Source: Streptomyces sp. V3I8 (GTDB lineage: Bacteria > Actinomycetota > Actinomycetes > Streptomycetales > Streptomycetaceae). From it: a DNA stretch of 64,000 nt. The notes under the pieces were generated by a model. The model had not been told where the DNA came from. It saw nothing but the letters and a program-made list of their open reading frames with translations, and ran no database searches. The DNA lies in assembly GCF_030817535.1 (NCBI RefSeq), contig NZ_JAUSZL010000002.1, positions 744,001-808,000 on the forward strand. Reading direction: 5' to 3'. A program made the position numbers and the translations under genes. Shown one piece after another: positions 2,418 through 33,932 of this stretch; position 1 is the first letter of the stretch; each line of letters opens with the position of its first letter.

Positions 2418-2499
2418 GCCGGGCCCTCTTCTCCCGAGATCCCCTCACCACCACACGACATGCGAACCCGTGCACATCGCCGGCCGGAAGGACGGAGTC

Positions 2500-2694
2500 A
2501 TGAAGCTCAGCGTGGACGAGGAGAGGTGCTGCGGCGCCGGCGCGTGTGTCCTGGCCGCTCCCGAGGTGTTCGACCAGCGGGACGAGGACGGCGTCGTCAC
2601 CCTCCTGGACAGCGACCCCGCCGAACACCGGCAGAACGCCGTGCGCGAGGCGGCAGCGGTCTGCCCCACCGCGGCGATCCGCGTGACCGCCTGA
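2500..2694 (+). CDS. [3Fe-4S] ferredoxin
   Basis: Small soluble electron carrier of 64 residues. The cluster motif is CCGAGAC near the N-terminus with the distal CPTAAI; the second Cys of a classical 4Fe-4S motif is replaced (Gly-Ala-Gly), as in the P450-linked [3Fe-4S] ferredoxins of Streptomyces. ATG 2500 has an AAGGACGGA Shine-Dalgarno sequence. Position just downstream of the P450 argues that it feeds electrons to that enzyme. No ferredoxin reductase lies nearby, so a reductase encoded elsewhere would be needed. Confidence 0.9.
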   Translation: MKLSVDEERCCGAGACVLAAPEVFDQRDEDGVVTLLDSDPAEHRQNAVREAAAVCPTAAIRVTA

Positions 2695-2760
2695 CCGCTC
2701 GATCGCTCGACCGCGAGGCCGGTAACGACGCGGTCGGGCACCCGCGGTTCGGCCTGTCCG

Positions 2761-2799
2761 CCGTCCCTGTAGGCCGTCCCTGTAGGCCGTCCCTGTACG
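2761..2799 (+). repeat. 13-bp tandem repeat, three copies
   Basis: CCGTCCCTGTAGG occurs twice and a third unit ends in ACG. It sits in the 329-base non-coding gap between the ferredoxin and the convergent epoxide hydrolase. No gene is supported in this gap. Confidence 0.75.
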
Positions 2800-2982
2800 C
2801 CGGGTGGACCCGGGCCACTGCACGCACGACGAGATCGCCACGATCGTGGCGGACCTGTCCCGCCGACCGACGGCCGGCCACGGCAAAGGGCGGGTGTGCG
2901 ACAGGAGCGGTCGCCGGAAGCCGTGGTGGTCTGCCGGACGCTGCCGGACACTGATGAACCGTGACTGGAACGAGGTGACCGG

Positions 2983-3005
2983 CGAGCCCGGCCCGACCGG
3001 GCTCG
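2983..3005. terminator. bidirectional hairpin between convergent genes
   Basis: CGAGCCCGG and CCGGGCTCG form a perfect 9-bp stem with a 5-base loop. It lies 18 bases from the epoxide hydrolase stop and serves as a plausible terminator for both converging transcripts. Confidence 0.7.
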
Positions 3006-3023
3006 GCTGGTGCACCCATCGGC

Positions 3024-4031
3024 TCATGCCGACGGCGTCGCTCCGTCGAGGGACGCGAGCCAGGCGAGCAGCAGCCGGTTGACCTCGTCGGGGCGTTCCT
3101 GCTGGACCCAGTGGCCGCAGCCCTCGACGAGGTGCGAGGAGACCAGACCGGGGAGGGTGCCGGGGAACGCCTCGACCGCGTCGGCCAACCAGGTGAGGGA
3201 GGCGTCGAGTTCACCGGCGACGAAGAGCGACGGCTGCGCGATCGGAGCGCCGTCGAAGTCCGCGAGGTCCTCCCAGTCGCGGTCCATGCTGCGGTAGCGG
3301 TTGAGCGCCCCCTTGAACCCGGTCCGCCCGAACTCGGCCGTGACGAAGTCGAGTTCCGCGTCCGTGAGCCAGGACGGACGGTGCGGTACGAAGCGGTCCG
3401 ACATCCTGGCGCCCTTCGGTACGAAGAAGACCGCGCCCTCCCCCGACGCCGGCCTCGTGTCGCCGGCCAGGGTGGCGTAGAAACCGGCCAGCCAGCCCCG
3501 CACGTCGCGCTCGATCTCCGCCTCCGCGCGGCCCGGCTCCTGGAAGTGGCCGACGTAGAACTCCTCGTCCCCGCCGATCATGGCGAAGACGTCGCTCGGC
3601 CGCGGGCCGCCCCGGGGCGCGTACGGCACGCCGAGCATCCCGACGGCGGTGAAGACGTCGGGCCGCAGCAGCGCGGAGTCGGCGGCGATGGTCGAGCCCC
3701 AGTCGTGGCCGACGATCACGGCGGTCTCCTCGCCGAGCGCACGGACGACCGCCACGTTGTCCTCGACATGGGCACCGATGCGGTACGCCGCCACGTCCTC
3801 GGGCACCGAGGAGCGCCCGTAGCCGCGTACGTCGACGGCCACCGCGCGGTAGCCGGCCGCGGCGAGCACCGGGAGCTGGTGGCGCCACGAGGACCAGAGT
3901 TCGGGAAAGCCGTGGATCAGCAGGACCAGCGGGCCGGCGCCCTGCTCGACCAGGTGGATACGGGCACCGGGCACGTCCACCAGTCGGTGACGGGCACCCG
4001 CCGGGGTGATCGGGTCGGCGTCCTGCGGCAT
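3024..4031 (-). CDS. epoxide hydrolase-type alpha/beta hydrolase
   Basis: Soluble hydrolase of 335 residues. The oxyanion motif HGFPE is at residues 40-44, DVRGYG at about 67-72, the nucleophile elbow GHDWGS puts Asp at about residue 110 (Asp rather than Ser, typical of epoxide hydrolases and dehalogenases), and the catalytic His lies in GHWVQQERP near the C-terminus. The start at 4031 has a GGAGGG Shine-Dalgarno; a longer in-frame extension to 4232 has no family similarity. It converges with the P450-ferredoxin operon, so an epoxide-forming and opening pair is conceivable but unproven. Confidence 0.88.
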   Translation of the reverse strand: MPQDADPITPAGARHRLVDVPGARIHLVEQGAGPLVLLIHGFPELWSSWRHQLPVLAAAGYRAVAVDVRGYGRSSVPEDVAAYRIGAHVEDNVAVVRALGEETAVIVGHDWGSTIAADSALLRPDVFTAVGMLGVPYAPRGGPRPSDVFAMIGGDEEFYVGHFQEPGRAEAEIERDVRGWLAGFYATLAGDTRPASGEGAVFFVPKGARMSDRFVPHRPSWLTDAELDFVTAEFGRTGFKGALNRYRSMDRDWEDLADFDGAPIAQPSLFVAGELDASLTWLADAVEAFPGTLPGLVSSHLVEGCGHWVQQERPDEVNRLLLAWLASLDGATPSA

Positions 4032-4290
4032 GAGCCCTCCTCGGGGTGTGTTCTCCTGCCGTTGATCATGGTGGGGCCTGCGCCACGGGGCGAGATGCCT
4101 TGCCGTTTCGGCAAAAGCGGGTCCGGACGGCACCGGGGTCCGCGGGACGGGCGGGTTCACGCCACTCCTGGGGCGCGGGTGGCTGCGGTGAACCGGACCG
4201 CGTGACGGCACGTACTGAAGGAGGGCGTTCACCTCACGGGAGCGTCCATGGAAGTGACGCTGTGTCAGAACAGTCGCACGGGAGCGGTGG

Positions 4291-5700
4291 ATGAGGCACG
4301 CACGACGGAATGTTCAGCGCATCGCACGGCTCGCCGCCATCGGCGGGCTGGCCTGCGGAGGGCTGATGGTCACGCATGCCGTGGCGAGCGAGACGTCGGG
4401 CGATCCGCTCACTCCCAACGCCGAGACCCGGGCCGCGCGGACCGGCCAGGAACTGGTCACCGACCTGGGCGCCTCCCGTACGGCGGGCAGCTGGATCGAC
4501 GCCGAGGGGCGCCCGGTCGTCGCGGTGACCGACGAGAAGGCGGCGGCCGACGTACGCGAGGCCGGCGCCGTCGCCAAGGTCGTCAGCCACACCATGCTGG
4601 ACCTCAAGTCCGCCACCGAGACGCTGAAGGACGCGCCCAAGGTGGCCGGCACCTCCTGGGCGATGGACTACGCAGCCAACCAGGTGGTGGTGCGCGCCGA
4701 CACCACCGTCTCCGCCGCCCAGTGGGCGCGGCTGACCGCGGTCGCCGAGGGCATCGGCACCTCCGTGCGTATGGAGCGGACGAAGGGCACGTTCACGCCG
4801 CGGCTGAACGGCGCCGACGCGATGTTCGCGGGCTCGGGACGCTGTTCGGCGGGCTTCAACGTGACGAACGGGCAGAACGACTTCATCCTCACGGCCGGCC
4901 ACTGCGGCCCCGTGGGCACGACGTGGTTCTCGGACCAGCAGGGCAGCAAGCAGGTCGGGGACACCGTCTCCGGCTCATTCCCCGGCGGCGACTTCTCGCT
5001 CGTGCGGTACGCCCCCGGAACCGCCCTGAGCGGCGCCGACATCGTGTCCGTGGGCGGCGGCCAGGGCGTACGGATCGTCGGGGCGGCCGATCCGGCCGTC
5101 GGGCAGAAGGTCTTCCGCAGCGGCAGCACGACCGGCCTGCGGTCCGGTCAGGTGACGGGGCTCAACGCCACGGTGAACTACCCCCAGGGCACGGTCACCG
5201 GACTCATCGAGACCACGGTGTGCGCCGAACCGGGCGACAGCGGCGGCCCGATGTTCGCCGACGGACTGGCCCTGGGCGTCACCTCGGGCGGCAGCGGTGA
5301 CTGCACCAATGGCGGCACGACGTTCTTCCAGCCCGTGACGAAGGCGCTCGACTCGCTCGGCGTGGAACTGGCGGGCGACCCCGGCTCGGCCGACCAGGCC
5401 GCGCCCTCCTCCGGCAGCACCGGAGCCACCGGCGGCGCGGGCGCGGCGGTGCCGCCCGGCGCCTCCTCGACCGCCCCCGGCGGCGCGGTCCTGCCAGGTG
5501 CCATGGGTCCGGCGCAGACGGTTCCCGAGGGGCGGACCGACACCACGACCTCGGCGCTGGAACGGCTCGGCGAGTACCGGAATCTCGGGCCCGGGCTGTT
5601 CGTCATCGCGGGGAGCCTGCTCGCGCTGGTGGCACTGCGCATCCGTTCGGAACGGGGCCGCAGGCGCTATCGCAACCAGTACGCGCAGAGCTGGGGCTGA
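4291..5700 (+). CDS. streptogrisin-like serine protease with C-terminal membrane anchor
   Basis: Secreted S1 (chymotrypsin-fold) protease of 469 residues. It has an N-terminal signal peptide (about 1-32), an alpha-lytic-type propeptide (about 40-165) and a catalytic domain with TAGHC (H204), GGDFSLV (D234) and PGDSGGP (S317). A Gly/Ala/Ser/Pro linker (365-420) leads to a hydrophobic segment (about 430-448) and a basic RIRSERGRRRYR tail. The tail suggests membrane anchoring after export, unlike classical released streptogrisins. A related protease gene runs off the end of this window. It is divergent from the epoxide hydrolase. Confidence 0.9.
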   Translation: MRHARRNVQRIARLAAIGGLACGGLMVTHAVASETSGDPLTPNAETRAARTGQELVTDLGASRTAGSWIDAEGRPVVAVTDEKAAADVREAGAVAKVVSHTMLDLKSATETLKDAPKVAGTSWAMDYAANQVVVRADTTVSAAQWARLTAVAEGIGTSVRMERTKGTFTPRLNGADAMFAGSGRCSAGFNVTNGQNDFILTAGHCGPVGTTWFSDQQGSKQVGDTVSGSFPGGDFSLVRYAPGTALSGADIVSVGGGQGVRIVGAADPAVGQKVFRSGSTTGLRSGQVTGLNATVNYPQGTVTGLIETTVCAEPGDSGGPMFADGLALGVTSGGSGDCTNGGTTFFQPVTKALDSLGVELAGDPGSADQAAPSSGSTGATGGAGAAVPPGASSTAPGGAVLPGAMGPAQTVPEGRTDTTTSALERLGEYRNLGPGLFVIAGSLLALVALRIRSERGRRRYRNQYAQSWG

Positions 5701-5737
5701 CCGGAGCCCCACCCTGCGGGGAGCGTTTACTGGGGAC

Positions 5738-6994
5738 ATGACGCACCCCAGTCACGACGCCGGCCGAGCTCCCGCCGACACCGACACCGGCACCACAACG
5801 GCATCCGCGTCCACGTCCGCACCCGTGTCCGCCCCGGCCGAAGACCGTGCCCCCGTCGTCGTGGGCACCCCCGGCTCCTTCGCCCGCGGTGTGCTGGACG
5901 AGCGGCACCCGGCCCTGATCGAGCGGGTCCGGCGGGCCACTCCCTACCCGCCGGCCCAGCAGCGCGCCCTCGACGCCCTCCTCGACGAGATCACCCAGGG
6001 ACCGGTCGGGCGCCTGCACGACAGCGAGCCGGGCGCCGGGGCCTGGCGGGACGAGCCGTACTACGGGCAGCGCTGGGCGGACGTGCCGTTCCTGTGGGCG
6101 GAGAGTTTCTTCTACCGCAGACTCCTGGCCGCCCTGGGGTACTTCGCGCCGGGCCCGTGGCGGGGTGTCGACCCCTTCGCCCCCTTCAAGAACGCCGAAC
6201 TCGCGGGCGCCCAGGTCGACGGCGAGCTGTCCGCGCTCGACCGCCTCCCCGCCCTGCCGCCGGACGAGCGGGACCGTACGCTCCTGCTCTCCTCCCTCTG
6301 GGGCAACCGCGCCGACCTCGGCTTCCGGCTGTCCGCGGGCGGGGCGGGGCTGGGCGACCAGGTGCCGGGGCTCGTCGTCGACGACTCGCCGGCGCTGTGG
6401 GAGCTGCTCGCGGCCGGCGGGCCCGGCACGGTCTGTCTCGTCGCCGACAACGCCGGTCCGGAACTGCTCCCCGACCTCGTGCTCGCCGACCACCTGCTGG
6501 CCACCGGGCGGGCCGCCCGCGTGGTCCTGCACCTGAAGCCGTACCCGTACTACGTCTCCGACGCCACCACCGCCGACACACTCGCCTGCCTCGACCGGCT
6601 GACGCGCGCGTCCGGGCATGCCGCGGCGGCCGGCGAACGGCTGCGGCGGGCCATGACCGACGGCCGGATGGTCCTGCGCGCCCACCCGTTCTCCTGCGCG
6701 CCGTACTCCTACGACCGGATGCCCGCCGATCTCCGGGAGGATTTCGCGTCCGCCACGCTCACCGTCATGAAGGGCGACCTCAACTACCGCCGCCTGGTGG
6801 GCGACCGGCACTGGCCGGCCACCACGCCGTTCGCGCAGGCCTGCGCGTACTTCCCCGGCCCGGTGGCCGCGCTGCGGACACTCAAGTGCGACGTCATGAC
6901 CGGGCTGACGTCCGCGGCGCTGGCGGAGCTGGACGCGGGCGCAAAGTCCTGGCGTACGAGCGGGACGCACGCCCTCGTCCAGGTCAGGGCCTGA
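5738..6994 (+). CDS. DUF89/ARMT1-like metal-dependent phosphatase
   Basis: Protein of 418 residues resembling the damage-control phosphatase family (DUF89, ARMT1-like). Family landmarks seen are the SLWGNRADL segment, VADNAGPELLPDL (acidic DNxGxE metal-site motif) and VMKGDLNYRRL (K-G-D-xN motif). Known members hydrolyse phosphate esters of damaged sugar phosphates. The first ~50 residues are Thr/Ala/Ser-rich and probably disordered. ATG 5738 follows GGGGAC. The neighbours are unrelated, so no pathway can be assigned. Confidence 0.85.
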   Translation: MTHPSHDAGRAPADTDTGTTTASASTSAPVSAPAEDRAPVVVGTPGSFARGVLDERHPALIERVRRATPYPPAQQRALDALLDEITQGPVGRLHDSEPGAGAWRDEPYYGQRWADVPFLWAESFFYRRLLAALGYFAPGPWRGVDPFAPFKNAELAGAQVDGELSALDRLPALPPDERDRTLLLSSLWGNRADLGFRLSAGGAGLGDQVPGLVVDDSPALWELLAAGGPGTVCLVADNAGPELLPDLVLADHLLATGRAARVVLHLKPYPYYVSDATTADTLACLDRLTRASGHAAAAGERLRRAMTDGRMVLRAHPFSCAPYSYDRMPADLREDFASATLTVMKGDLNYRRLVGDRHWPATTPFAQACAYFPGPVAALRTLKCDVMTGLTSAALAELDAGAKSWRTSGTHALVQVRA

Positions 6995-22669: not shown

Positions 22670-23242
22670 TCAGGCGGCGAAGCCGATGGTGGTCACGTAC
22701 TCGTACTGGCCCCACTGAGAGCCGAGGTCGACGACCTGGTCCACCCACGCCTCGTCCAGCTCCCGCTCGTCACCGGCCGCCCACGCGGCGACGATCCGGT
22801 CCCACCGGCGGACGTTCATCGTGCGGAACTCCACCGCGCGCTGACGCGGCCGGTCGACCCGGGACTGGTTGACCGGGTGGACTTCCACGCGGGTGCCGCG
22901 GCCCTCGCGGTTGAGGCGGGCGGTGAGGTAGCGGGCGACGTTCTCGCGCCGCACGATGCGGTACGCCTGCTCGACGCGTGCGAGGTTCTTGCGCGAGGGG
23001 GCCCGGGTGCCGACCTGCCAGGCGCGCAGGGTGCGGTCGGTGACGGTCAGTCCGGCCGTACGGGCCGCGTCGCGGGCGTGGGCGGTGCGGGTGAGGTAGT
23101 GCAGGCGCGCCTGCAGGCCGCGGCGGACGGTGACGGGGGTGGCGATGTAGCCGGCGAGCGCGTCCAGTTGGCGGGCGACGGCTTCGTGGCCTTTGATGCC
23201 GTGGGCGCCGTACTTGCCGAACTCGATGTTCCGCTCAGGCAT
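22670..23242 (-). CDS. Tpg-like HTH protein, copy A
   Basis: Protein of 190 residues, close to the length of the Streptomyces telomere terminal protein Tpg (184). A short N-terminal segment (MPERNIEFGKYGAHGIKG) is followed by a helix-turn-helix core (about 40-95; LTVTDRTLRAWQVGTRAPSRKNLARVEQAYR resembles the Tpg motif VSQRTVxRY...RPRPxLAARIExEVR) and a conserved C-terminal domain ending SQWGQYEYVTTIGFAA. About 185 of 190 residues match copy B, and the five differences fall in the HTH. The partner gene is missing here. Tpg-like assignment rests on architecture and on the tap-like neighbour of copy B; a plain regulator is the alternative. Confidence 0.6.
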   Translation of the reverse strand: MPERNIEFGKYGAHGIKGHEAVARQLDALAGYIATPVTVRRGLQARLHYLTRTAHARDAARTAGLTVTDRTLRAWQVGTRAPSRKNLARVEQAYRIVRRENVARYLTARLNREGRGTRVEVHPVNQSRVDRPRQRAVEFRTMNVRRWDRIVAAWAAGDERELDEAWVDQVVDLGSQWGQYEYVTTIGFAA

Positions 23243-23269
23243 GATCTCTTCCGGATTCTCGGTTGTGGA

Positions 23270-23417
23270 TCACTGTACGGGGCTGTCGGCGCCGTTCCCG
23301 CGTCCCGGTGAGCAGGCAGGCCGGCACGGGGAAGCGTCCAGGGGCGGCTCCGCGGCTGCGTCAGGCCCCGTACCGACGGTGTAGGTGTCTTTGACCTTCA
23401 CCTCGGCCACGCCGCGG
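23270..23417 (-). pseudogene. 3' remnant of a tap-like gene
   Basis: In one minus-strand frame the last ~48 codons read RGVAEVKVKDTYTVGT...PVQ and stop 27 bases before the tpg-like ATG, exactly as in the intact tap-like gene of copy B (RGVAEVKVKDTYTVGTDPD...PVQ). Homology stops abruptly at 23417. This is the scar of a deletion that removed about 480 codons. Confidence 0.75.
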
Positions 23418-23753
23418 TATGCCGTCCTGGCCCCGTACGCCGTCCGCGCCAAGGTCAGCCTCCGCCCAACTGTGGGCCCGGGCGTGCACGGCGAGAGCCA
23501 GAGCACTGTGGACGAATATCTCCTGCGCTGCGATCCCGGCTGGCGGGCAGTCCGGCAGGTCGGGCCCCAGCATCGCCTGTGTCTGGCCCGCCAACAGGTC
23601 GAGAGCGCATGTTCGGCGAGCCTGGTCTGGAGGGTCCTGCCGGAGTTCTCTGGCGGCGTCACGAGCAGCCCTCAGCACGCGGAGGGCCATCCGGTCGAGT
23701 TCAGCTGGCGCGGTAGTGGCCCACTGAGGCCGAGCATGGTCGTCGGCGTTCAT
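23361..23753 (-). CDS. hypothetical protein with chimeric C-terminus
   Basis: Protein of 130 residues starting at ATG 23753 behind GGGGAGGGGG. Residues 1 to about 100 (MNADDHARPQWATT..., helical; RVLRAARDAARELRQ, ALALAVHARAHSWAEADL) look like a genuine small protein. From about codon 112 the frame reads through the tap-like remnant out of frame (RRGRGEGQRHLHRRYGA), so the natural C-terminus was lost at the 23417 junction. The family is unknown to me. It probably belonged to the plasmid- or telomere-type gene set. Confidence 0.5.
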   Translation of the reverse strand: MNADDHARPQWATTAPAELDRMALRVLRAARDAARELRQDPPDQARRTCALDLLAGQTQAMLGPDLPDCPPAGIAAQEIFVHSALALAVHARAHSWAEADLGADGVRGQDGIPRRGRGEGQRHLHRRYGA

Positions 23754-31437: not shown

Positions 31438-32010
31438 TCAGGCGGCGAAGCCGATGGTGGTCACGTACTCGTACTGGCCCCACTGCGAGCCGAGGTCGAC
31501 GACCTGGTCCACCCACGCCTCGTCCAGCTCCCGCTCGTCACCGGCCGCCCACGCGGCGACGATCCGGTCCCACCGGCGGACGTTCATCGTGCGGAACTCC
31601 ACCGCGCGCTGACGCGGCCGGTCGACCCGGGACTGGTTGACCGGGTGGACTTCCACGCGGGTGCCGCGGCCCTCGCGGTTGAGGCGGGCGGTGAGGTAGC
31701 GGGCGACGTTCTCGCGCCGCACGATGCGGTACGCCTGCTCGACGCGTGCGAGGTTCTTCCTTGATGGCGTGCGGGTACCGGCCTGCCAGGCGCGCAGCGT
31801 GCGGTCGGTGACGCTCAGGCCGGCCGCGCGTGCGGCATCGAGGGCGTGGGCGGTGCGGGTGAGGTAGTGCAGGCGCGCCTGCAGGCCGCGGCGGACGGTG
31901 ACGGGGGTGGCGATGTAGCCGGCGAGCGCATCCAGCTGCCGGGCGACGGCTTCGTGGCCTTTGATGCCGTGGGCGCCGTACTTGCCGAACTCGATGTTCC
32001 GCTCAGGCAT
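31438..32010 (-). CDS. Tpg-like HTH protein, copy B (paired with tap-like gene)
   Basis: Protein of 190 residues, last gene of a three-gene operon: XRE-like protein, Tap-like protein, then this one, 27 bases after the tap-like stop. Gene order matches the tap-tpg operon of Streptomyces, where Tap recruits and primes the terminal protein Tpg at replicating linear-DNA ends. HTH region (about 57-85): AGLSVTDRTLRAWQAGTRTPSRKNL. The C-terminal half (VHPVNQSRVDRPR, NVRRWDRIVAAWAAGD, GSQWGQYEYVTT) is invariant between copies. Direct similarity to archetypal Tpg is limited to the HTH style and size, so this may be a non-archetypal terminal protein or an unrelated DNA-binding partner. Confidence 0.6.
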   Translation of the reverse strand: MPERNIEFGKYGAHGIKGHEAVARQLDALAGYIATPVTVRRGLQARLHYLTRTAHALDAARAAGLSVTDRTLRAWQAGTRTPSRKNLARVEQAYRIVRRENVARYLTARLNREGRGTRVEVHPVNQSRVDRPRQRAVEFRTMNVRRWDRIVAAWAAGDERELDEAWVDQVVDLGSQWGQYEYVTTIGFAA

Positions 32011-32200
32011 GATCTCTTCCGGATTCTCGGTTGTGGATCACTGTACGGGTTCGTGAGCGTCGATCTTCCGCCCCGGCGGGGAATATGACGTCGGGGCGGA
32101 GGAACGGCGGCGCGAGGCGCTCCCAGGGGGCTCTGCGCCGGTGTCAGGGTCGGTGCCGACGGTGTAGGTGTCTTTGACCTTCACCTCGGCCACGCCGCGG
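31438..32200 (-). repeat. copy B of the ~0.75-kb direct repeat
   Basis: Counterpart of 22670-23417 in the same orientation. It covers the complete tpg-like gene and the 3' end of the intact tap-like gene up to CACGCCGCGG at 32200. Confidence 0.9.
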
Positions 32201-33624
32201 CCCTCGGGGAACACCGCCCGCCAGTCGCCGGCCACATGCAGTTCGTCGGTGCCCATCGCGCGCACGACCGTAAGGCCCTCGCCATAGGCGCGGTGGGCCT
32301 TCCACCACAGGTTGGCGAAGGCCTGGGAGCGGATGAGGTGCATCCAGTCGGTGCGGTACAGCTCACGGTTGTAGTTCGACTCCCCCAGCGTGGAGACGAA
32401 CTTGGAATACATCGCCTTCACATACTCCAGCATCACATCGTCGCCGTCGGCGATCGCCCGGTCCCGGGCGTCCTTGAGAGCGATACGGAACTTCTCCAGC
32501 AGCCCCTCGGTCGCCCCGGACGTCCACGACTCGTGAATGTGCGGCGGGTCGCACAGCCCGTACTTCGGGCCCGACACGCGCAGCAGCAGACGCAGCGTCG
32601 CCTCCGTGACCCACAACGGGCCCGGCTCCTCGCGATGGCCGATCGGGTTCGGCAGACAGGCGTCGTGCTCCCAGACAGGCGGGGTGATCAGGTGCAGGCC
32701 AGCACGGCGGCGGTCGTGGGGGGCGCCGGTGGTGTGTTCGAGCTGCCCGATCGGCAGGTGGGTCTTGAGGGCGGACAGGTAGGCGCCGTTGATGTCCAGC
32801 GCGGTCACCTCATGCCGACCGGCGGGGAGTTCCGGGCGGCTCCACCTGGGGCGGGCCTCCCAGATCTGGTCGGCGCCGCGCGCGCTCTGCTTGCGCAGGA
32901 TGTCAGGGAGCCACGGATGCGCGACGACGTCGTAGCGGCCGCCCTTGCGGGTGTGGTCCAACAGCGCCATCGCGTCCGGGATCGCCCGCTTCACGAGCGC
33001 GGCGGTCGCGGCTTCGACGTCACCGGAGTGTTCGGCGAGCGCGGCCGCGACGGCAGCGCCGATGAGGTCCGGGGTGTCGGAAGCCGCCTGCACACGCCGG
33101 CCGACCGGCACGACCTTCACGCCGCTCTCCGCCCGGCCCGGTTCCCTGACGGGCGCCGGCGCGGTCACACCGCACTCGGCCGGATCCAGGTGCTGGGCGA
33201 ACCCTTCGACCTGGTGCCGGGCCGGCTGCCCGCACAGCACACACGGCTGAGGGACGGCCAGGACGTTCACGTCGTCGTGCGGTTCGGCCGTCTGCTCGGC
33301 CTCCACCGACTCGTCGTCATCGGGCTCGCCGTCGCCAGGATCGTCGACGGCAGCCCCGGTGGCAGCGGCCCCGGTGGCGGGGTCCAGCTTGGTGCGGGCA
33401 CCCTCGAGGAAGTACGCGTACTTCTCCCGCACCTCACCACCCGGGTCCCGGCCCGACTCCCAGCCCCCGACCGTCGACGGGCTCACTCCCAAGGCGTGCG
33501 CGAGCTGGGGGCGCGACAGGTGCAGGCCCTCACGCAGCCGGCGCCGCTCCTCGGCGGGCGGCAGCGGGGTCCGCTCCGACGACGCGGCGGCGAGCAGGGC
33601 GTCGATCGCGTCGAGGTCCGCCAT
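32038..33624 (-). CDS. Tap-like (telomere-associated protein-like) HTH/polymerase-like protein
   Basis: Protein of 528 residues. N-terminal XRE-type HTH at about 28-60 (RPQLAHALGVSPSTVGGWESG) closely matches the Tap start. An acidic linker (93-118) leads to a Cys/His cluster (C128, C131, H137, H145, C151). The C-terminal half holds ALDINGAYLSAL (D277), YVKAMYSKFVSTLGE (K403) and VVRAMGTDELHV (D460), spaced like motifs A, B and C of a family-B polymerase palm and like the corresponding blocks I recall in Tap. The ATG overlaps the stop of the XRE gene (TGATG), implying coupling. The role at telomeres is inferred, not proven. Confidence 0.6.
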   Translation of the reverse strand: MADLDAIDALLAAASSERTPLPPAEERRRLREGLHLSRPQLAHALGVSPSTVGGWESGRDPGGEVREKYAYFLEGARTKLDPATGAAATGAAVDDPGDGEPDDDESVEAEQTAEPHDDVNVLAVPQPCVLCGQPARHQVEGFAQHLDPAECGVTAPAPVREPGRAESGVKVVPVGRRVQAASDTPDLIGAAVAAALAEHSGDVEAATAALVKRAIPDAMALLDHTRKGGRYDVVAHPWLPDILRKQSARGADQIWEARPRWSRPELPAGRHEVTALDINGAYLSALKTHLPIGQLEHTTGAPHDRRRAGLHLITPPVWEHDACLPNPIGHREEPGPLWVTEATLRLLLRVSGPKYGLCDPPHIHESWTSGATEGLLEKFRIALKDARDRAIADGDDVMLEYVKAMYSKFVSTLGESNYNRELYRTDWMHLIRSQAFANLWWKAHRAYGEGLTVVRAMGTDELHVAGDWRAVFPEGRGVAEVKVKDTYTVGTDPDTGAEPPGSASRRRSSAPTSYSPPGRKIDAHEPVQ

Positions 33625-33932
33625 CAGGCCGCTCCGTTCGCGGCTGCGGAGCGGGCTCCGGCGGCCGGGCGACCCGGCACACGACGGCGTTCGGGGGGAA
33701 GGGCCTCGACGGCTCGGGTGGGACCGGCCAGAAGGTCGTGCGCGGCAATGCCGTAGTGCACGGCCACCGCGTCGCAGTCGGCCAGGCTCCACGCCGCGGC
33801 GCCGGACTGACGACGGCTCACCTGCGCCTGGCTCACCCCCAGCGCGACAGCAAGGTCGGTCTGCGACTCACCCGCCGCATGCAGGAGAGCGGCAACGGCT
33901 GACCGCATCAGCTCATCGAGGGCCATACTCAT
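33624..33932 (-). CDS. small XRE-like HTH protein leading the tap-tpg-like operon
   Basis: Protein of 102 residues: ALLHAAGESQTDLAVALGVSQAQVSRRQSG is a clear Cro/CI-type helix-turn-helix, followed by DAVAVHYGIAAHDLLAG. Its stop overlaps the tap-like start. ATG 33932 has no Shine-Dalgarno but a TATTGT-like -10 lies about 8 bases upstream, compatible with a leaderless transcript; ATG 33926 is an alternative. It likely regulates the operon. Confidence 0.65.
   Translation of the reverse strand: MSMALDELMRSAVAALLHAAGESQTDLAVALGVSQAQVSRRQSGAAAWSLADCDAVAVHYGIAAHDLLAGPTRAVEALPPERRRVPGRPAAGARSAAANGAA

Follow-up and report, generated by a model that had tools for sequence, protein, structure and literature searches.

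The window analysed here is a stretch of 64,000 nucleotides (nt) from Streptomyces sp. V3I8, C2:744001-808000, in which C2 (8,846,592 bases) is the chromosome contig of a 9.32-Mb genome assembled in four contigs. Close to the middle of the window lies a compact minus-strand operon of three genes that resembles the telomere pair Tap-Tpg of Streptomyces. The genes, given in amino acids (aa) and read from the front of the operon, are as follows:

33624..33932, minus strand: gene for an XRE/BetR-type helix-turn-helix (HTH) protein of 102 aa, whose TGA stop overlaps the polymerase ATG (TGATG)
32038..33624, minus strand: Tap-like gene, 528 aa, a predicted exonuclease-less protein-primed family-B DNA polymerase
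31438..32010, minus strand: Tpg-like gene, 190 aa, a probable terminal protein (TP) with an HTH, 27 bases after the Tap-like gene

The layout given in the original prediction for this DNA, three minus-strand open reading frames (ORFs) with a stop-start overlap and a short gap, was found in full. Protein searches at E <= 0.001 returned 1904 relatives of the 528-aa protein (7995 candidates scored) and 876 relatives of the 190-aa protein. Among the best 120 matches listed for each, those with a name are mostly called 'helix-turn-helix domain-containing protein' or 'transcriptional regulator'. Eighty named loci were kept out of 250 relatives; a TP-like ORF (<=900 nt) follows the polymerase in 56 of the 80, and TP matches are present anywhere in 61. 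These numerous relatives and the recurring polymerase-TP order show that the three ORFs are genes and not chance ORFs. Databases often call the polymerase of P0241-P0298, relatives from S. albidoflavus, an acyltransferase or dihydrolipoamide S-succinyltransferase, apparently a misannotation that is spreading.

Predicted polymerase core and its probable kinship with Tap

The original prediction had proposed a structural comparison and would have counted an unrelated phage or plasmid regulator as best match against itself. Instead, the top structural match of the 528-aa protein is a protein-primed polymerase of the phi29 kind, a predicted fold that the original prediction had missed. The VIA model ranges matched to phi29 polymerase begin at residues 206-213 and extend to 489 or further, and the predicted structure of this core of about 300 residues has the family-B palm fold. 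The catalytic motif residues D277, K403, D460 and K484 are present, with the motifs assigned by eye. The features of the protein are:

33430..33543, minus strand: N-terminal HTH, residues 28-65 (Pfam HTH_3, E 2.5e-6), inside the Tap model match
33172..33243, minus strand: C128-x2-C131 ... H145 ... C151, a possible zinc site in our reading, its residues invariant in 13 close relatives
32155..33009, minus strand: polymerase core, residues 206-490, from the VIA model ranges and the hhalign alignment with the Tap core
32794..32796, minus strand: D277, motif A (D-I-N-G-A-Y), invariant in 122 sequences; phi29 has D-V-N-S-L-Y-P
32416..32418, minus strand: K403, motif B, invariant in 122 sequences
32245..32247, minus strand: D460, motif C (G-T-D-E), invariant in 122 sequences; phi29 has D-T-D-S
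32173..32175, minus strand: K484, K-x-x-Y stretch, invariant in 122 sequences

With the phi29 system the pair shares the predicted polymerase fold, the order of motifs A, B and C and of the Lys-Tyr stretch, and a polymerase gene that adjoins the TP gene. The differences are considerable. The 3'-5' exonuclease domain is absent, as the match begins at phi29 residues 176-189 and the N-terminus holds the additional HTH instead; a possible zinc site is present; motifs B and C are 57 residues apart here versus 75 in phi29; sequence similarity is not detectable; and the genes here are those of bacterial chromosomes and plasmids. Viral contigs scanned with Tap and with the polymerase family yielded 6 and 23 pattern stretches, respectively, with 0 confirmed relatives.

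The database names would suggest a simpler reading, namely that both proteins are ordinary HTH transcription regulators. Both do contain HTH domains, and a profile of the polymerase family searched against PDB sequences returned HTH matches only. Set against the 300-residue core with its phi29-polymerase-like predicted fold and invariant motif residues, the homology of that core with Tap and the telomere-class link described below, this reading is scarcely credible and is rejected on the fold and the telomere link.

The resemblance to Tap claimed in the original prediction, together with its caveat of weak similarity, is genuine: the Tap model NF047542 matches the 528-aa protein with an E value of 3e-19, best over residues 4-128, at 69.2 bits and thus far under the curated cut-off of 600 bits for family membership. 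Profiles were compared by hhalign with a reference alignment built on 19 full-length Taps of other Streptomyces genomes; one set-up aligned the core (probability 96.4, E 1.2e-9) and the other the HTH (probability 97.7, E 1.7e-12). Aligning the cores only gave a probability of 86, an E value of 5.1e-6 and a score of 47.6 over 170 columns at 28% identity. Since this far exceeds the controls (E 0.35 for reversed profiles; E 0.18 and score 17.3 for the best of 20 column shuffles), the Tap core is, judged from sequence, very probably homologous to the core of this polymerase. By score and by telomere class the protein is not a Tap proper, and common ancestry of the cores is what the profiles support.

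Beyond the homologous core, the likeness to Tap-Tpg extends to gene order, the N-terminal HTH, a location on plasmids and chromosome arms, and a small HTH-bearing partner (190 aa here and 184-185 aa in most Tpgs). The differences are another telomere class, the extra XRE partner, and a TP that resembles Tpg in its HTH only. According to passages of PMC4513846, Tap adds as many as 13 nt to Tpg with no second polymerase, both Tap and Tac nucleotidylate the terminal protein that goes with them though a polymerase motif was not seen, and Streptomyces encode no family-B polymerase.

Association with Sg2247-type telomeres

Two other contigs of the genome, C1 (56.6 kb) and C4 (258.7 kb), start with packed palindromes that match Sg2247-type telomeres. 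Over its first 46 bases, C1 shares 95.7% identity with the beginning of the pSHJG1 record CP003276, and C1 1-130 matches pSCAT 1-136. According to passages of PMC8743542, pSCAT and one end of pSHJG1 (right-hand, record NC_017766) are of the Sg2247 type and the other pSHJG1 end is archetypal; this archetypal end is seen at the far end of CP003276. Across six Sg2247-like ends, 9 of 28 predicted pairs have changed on both sides with pairing maintained; these pairs belong to the second and third stem, and the first stem is invariant. The ends of C2, considered as telomeres, were set aside since packed palindromes were not seen there. No Tap over the family cut-off was found in the genome, which holds only an N-terminal Tap piece on C1 and weaker HTH matches. 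The outcome that the original prediction had set against itself, an intact archetypal pair with circular replicons only, did not occur, and the tie to Sg2247-type ends, to which these sequences point, was a feature it had missed. Telomere proteins for such ends were not found according to the passages of PMC8743542 that deal with them, and for S. albus J1074 a novel pair has been assumed that is yet to be identified (in passages of PMC3937824).

Plasmid records were grouped by their ends. The Sg2247-like set has 38 records with a match <=200 nt from the record end: 32, with E <= 0.1, were kept of the 60 rows listed out of 93 records, and 6 came from a second search with 60 of 62 listed. Streptomyces rows with matches about 0.7-15 kb inside, weak matches and other genera were dropped from the first search. 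The archetypal-end set has 58 records kept of 60 listed (96 records), 2 internal ones being dropped. The two records of pSHJG1 each have one Sg2247-like and one archetypal end and count in both groups. For the polymerase, 123 records entered the carrier lists, where the searches reported 138 and 133, and for the TP 97 of 157 did; 'absent' thus means not among the listed carriers. By this measure, 33 of the 38 Sg2247-like plasmids carry polymerase and/or TP (29 polymerase, 25 TP), the named replicons pSCAT and pSGZL among them, as compared with 0 of the 58 archetypal-end plasmids (Fisher p 9e-21, a value that, like those below, ignores kinship, many records being related strains of one collection, and that is taken from partial carrier lists). 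Apart from pSHJG1, the three misses are plasmids of NBC_00289, NBC_00053 and NBC_01243, each of which has a sister plasmid carrying both genes.

The genes were also counted in 151 genomes, in which presence was defined as a score over the cut-off for Tap and as E <= 1e-20 for the polymerase. Tap occurs in 102, the polymerase in 57, both in 21 and neither in 13; the polymerase is found in 36 of the 49 genomes without Tap over the cut-off (p 7e-10), some of the 36 holding sub-cut-off Tap pieces (e.g. G107 in two pieces, G104, G052). The genomes with neither gene (G009, G010, G022, G038, G066, G070, G081, G082, G084, G113, G114, G116 and G127), of which G010, G113 and G114 hold such Tap pieces, may represent broken assemblies, circular chromosomes or further telomere systems. 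A search for the telomere core pattern hits 13 of the 151 genomes, with 1 in the backward control. In 11 it lies <=13 nt from a contig end, and the polymerase is present in every one of these 11 (p 1e-5); the remaining two matches are internal, have two mismatches and come from genomes with neither Tap nor polymerase. In six single-contig genomes the polymerase gene is present in mirrored copies near both ends, the copy of G062 lying 1.2 kb from the left end. On pRLB1-9.2 (NZ_CP041652.2, 75058-78703), a linear plasmid with an end matching the C1 telomere, dnaB, polymerase and TP are consecutive.

Copies of the telomere core also occur about 1-15 kb inside record ends with the terminus pointing inward, in NZ_CP108874 (926-971), NZ_CP108270 (306629-306674), NZ_CP107962 (426897-426942) and NZ_CP021119 (15204-15249) of PLSDB. 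These may be fused telomeres, pseudo-telomeres or assembly artefacts.

Partner proteins and further copies in the genome

The structural model of the 190-aa TP (pLDDT 80.6) consists of an HTH at about residues 40-77, a long helix and, between two strands, a loop of lower confidence:

31594..31641, minus strand: TP loop 124-139 with S127, a putative priming site

Within this loop, N125-Q126-S127 is invariant in 41 close relatives, and other residues occupy these positions in some distant relatives; because of this variation, S127 is regarded as a candidate priming residue. The priming site of Tpg is T114, in a predicted coil of its hydrophilic region (passages of PMC3572947). Like Tpg, the TP carries its HTH in the N-terminal half and is encoded behind a Tap-type gene. 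The hhalign alignment with Tpg covers residues 40-96 only, and homology over the priming half, with the T114 region, was not detected. When the TP model was compared with the PDB, polymerase eta occupied the top rows (E 0.4 and above) and was discarded as noise.

The 102-aa XRE protein matches BetR (E 1e-6) and is 48% identical over 94 residues (E 1e-26) to the N-terminus of P0241, a polymerase of the S. albidoflavus type. Indeed, Pfam BetR is matched by 19 of the 26 polymerases of alignment A8, and an XRE-like stretch occurs in 54 of the 80 named loci, 17 times in the polymerase frame and 37 times as a separate upstream frame. The XRE gene, set apart by the original prediction as an extra to the operon, is from these sequences instead a recurrent partner of the polymerase or a domain fused to it. 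In further relatives, the annotation gives a DnaB-type helicase domain, or the gene immediately upstream is dnaB. For instance, in L030, L031 and the PLSDB records NZ_CP108586 and NZ_CP109080 the polymerase core lies in 'DnaB-like helicase C-terminal domain-containing' proteins, with this annotation in place of the HTH. The ORF after the DnaB-type polymerase is TP-like in L031 (54% identity) and just 25% identical in L030.

The window holds a second set of related sequences:

22670..23242, minus strand: another intact TP gene (97% identity), separated from the main operon by 8.8 kb
23273..23419, minus strand: polymerase C-terminus remnant (65% identity with residues 475-528) that precedes the second TP

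Together (22670-23419) they may be a partial duplication or the trace of a second plasmid. A third TP (91%) lies on C1 behind a frame read by eye as a DnaB-type helicase, with the polymerase absent there. The plasmid-like locus L023 (C1:48000-56573) holds, at 2452-6699, a small Tap-type HTH frame, a 536-aa frame, a DnaB-like frame and the TP. If a plasmid TP relied on a polymerase encoded elsewhere, the situation would resemble that of SLP2, whose lone tpg depends on a chromosomal tap (passages of PMC3572947).

Such copies raise the question of whether the system is real and this particular copy is a relic left behind by a linear plasmid that integrated or recombined, with another copy or system serving the ends. 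The operon lies about 776 kb inside C2, a contig with ends that are not telomere-like, and decayed copies near the right end of C2 add to the remnant and the intact second TP 8.8 kb off. Despite these signs a relic seems unlikely: all three ORFs are intact, the polymerase is the sole full copy found in the genome, and C1 and C4 start with the matching telomere, C1 having a TP and, for the polymerase, a match to an HTH fragment only. Of the two origins that the original prediction had offered, a divergent terminal-protein system is favoured by the profile, structure and telomere checks, and the linear-plasmid relic, less favoured for this operon, may hold for part of the genome, relic-like copies being present elsewhere in it.

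Proposed end patching and its alternatives

The operon most probably encodes a terminal protein, a dedicated protein-primed polymerase and an HTH partner that together patch Sg2247-type ends. Computed support comes from the predicted fold, the invariant motif residues, the Tap-core homology, the telomere-class co-occurrence and the lack of a full Tap in the genome. Replication starting inside the replicon would leave 3' overhangs that could fold into packed hairpins. The HTH parts, i.e. the small XRE protein and the N-terminus of the 528-aa protein, may hold the complex on the telomere. The phi29-type palm, devoid of a proofreading domain, would link the initial nucleotide to a hydroxyl group on the 190-aa TP, perhaps that of S127. 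By analogy with Tap (passages of PMC4513846), the polymerase would make a short piece of DNA to be extended by other polymerases, and the TP would remain as a 5' cap.

The same two proteins could, in principle, start replication at the ends of a linear element in the manner of a phage. The phi29-like fold, the dnaB gene adjoining the pair on pRLB1-9.2 and the DnaB-type fusions among relatives are compatible with this. It is nevertheless very improbable: relatives reside on chromosomes and megabase plasmids, which are known to use internal origins (passages of PMC4513846), and TPR2-like spacing is absent, which makes a processive enzyme less likely.

End patching could also be carried out by a member of an already described family. 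The pair might belong to GtpB-GtpA of S. griseus, and would then be a homologue of a known atypical system with the same function, a possibility that we regard as less likely than not. S. anulatus, a species of the griseus clade, has relatives of the pair. By description, both are two-gene atypical terminal-protein operons, and GtpA is 18% identical to Tpg (passages of PMC7205883), akin to the faint Tpg resemblance here. However, GtpB and GtpA queries (50% identity, 98% coverage) gave no Tap or Tpg homologue on the linear plasmid of RLB1-9, written pRLB1-9.1 in passages of PMC7205883. This is probably pRLB1-9.2, since the same source counts pRLB1-9.2 among its linear plasmids, and the pair on that plasmid is 79% and 78% identical to the pair here. 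The telomere class of S. griseus 13350 also differs (passages of PMC8743542). GtpB-GtpA kinship, if true, could make the pair less novel, though not the polymerase reading. Likewise by description, Tac-Tpc of SCP1 is a two-gene atypical telomere operon in which Tac nucleotidylates Tpc (passages of PMC4513846); Tpc has 259 residues (passages of PMC3572947) versus 190 here.

Several observations weigh against end patching by a dedicated polymerase. The polymerase assignment depends on a predicted fold and by-eye motif matching: a sequence link to phi29 polymerase was not detected by hhalign (probability 0.2), and the profile search of PDB sequences stayed confined to the HTH. The Tap-core alignment spans motif A and the middle and ends ahead of motif C, the automatic alignment puts the Asp of Tap off D460, and Tap and the polymerase family have 23 conserved columns in common, little more than the 16 of the reversed control, an uninformative count that was replaced by hhalign with controls. 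Compared with 17 archetypal Tpgs, the TP is alike in the HTH only (hhalign probability 43, E 2.5e-4), its model had no PDB match at E 0.001, and 24 of the 80 named loci are without a TP within the range scanned. As for the telomeres, the chromosome contig C2 itself has ends that are not telomere-like, neither pSHJG1 record is a listed carrier despite its one Sg2247-type end, and 4 of the 11 genomes with a terminal motif (G035, G119, G122, G140) also have a full Tap. The kinship among records and the partial carrier lists count here as well. Finally, the S. canus plasmid NZ_CP108819 carries relatives yet has a different end, possibly a further telomere class. This small linear plasmid (L028, 17,342 bp) encodes a 1062-aa protein with the polymerase core, plus a TP.

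Among the literature titles and abstracts searched, with subscription papers and preprints largely outside, none described Tap as having a polymerase fold or assigned a protein pair to Sg2247-type ends, and the passages of PMC12926913, a 2026 survey of bacterial polymerases, contain no word beginning with Tap. On GtpA/GtpB, PMC7205883 was the one pertinent paper among the 10 listed.

Taken together, the pair is a concrete candidate for the telomere proteins of Sg2247-type ends, with many of its relatives filed as regulators or acyltransferases. More broadly, it is probable that Tap and the wider family are exonuclease-less, phi29-type protein-primed family-B polymerases with telomere-reading domains, in which the polymerase-TP core is kept and what lies in front of it (HTH, separate or fused XRE, DnaB-type helicase) is exchanged. 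If true, Streptomyces do encode family-B polymerases, the nucleotidylation of Tpg by Tap would be explained although a polymerase motif was not found, and the end-patching pair for Sg2247-type telomeres would be named. The predicted phi29-type core offers a mechanism for DNA synthesis on terminal proteins that is addressable through D277 and D460, and would connect protein-primed polymerases known from phages and viruses with a system that acts at bacterial chromosome ends.

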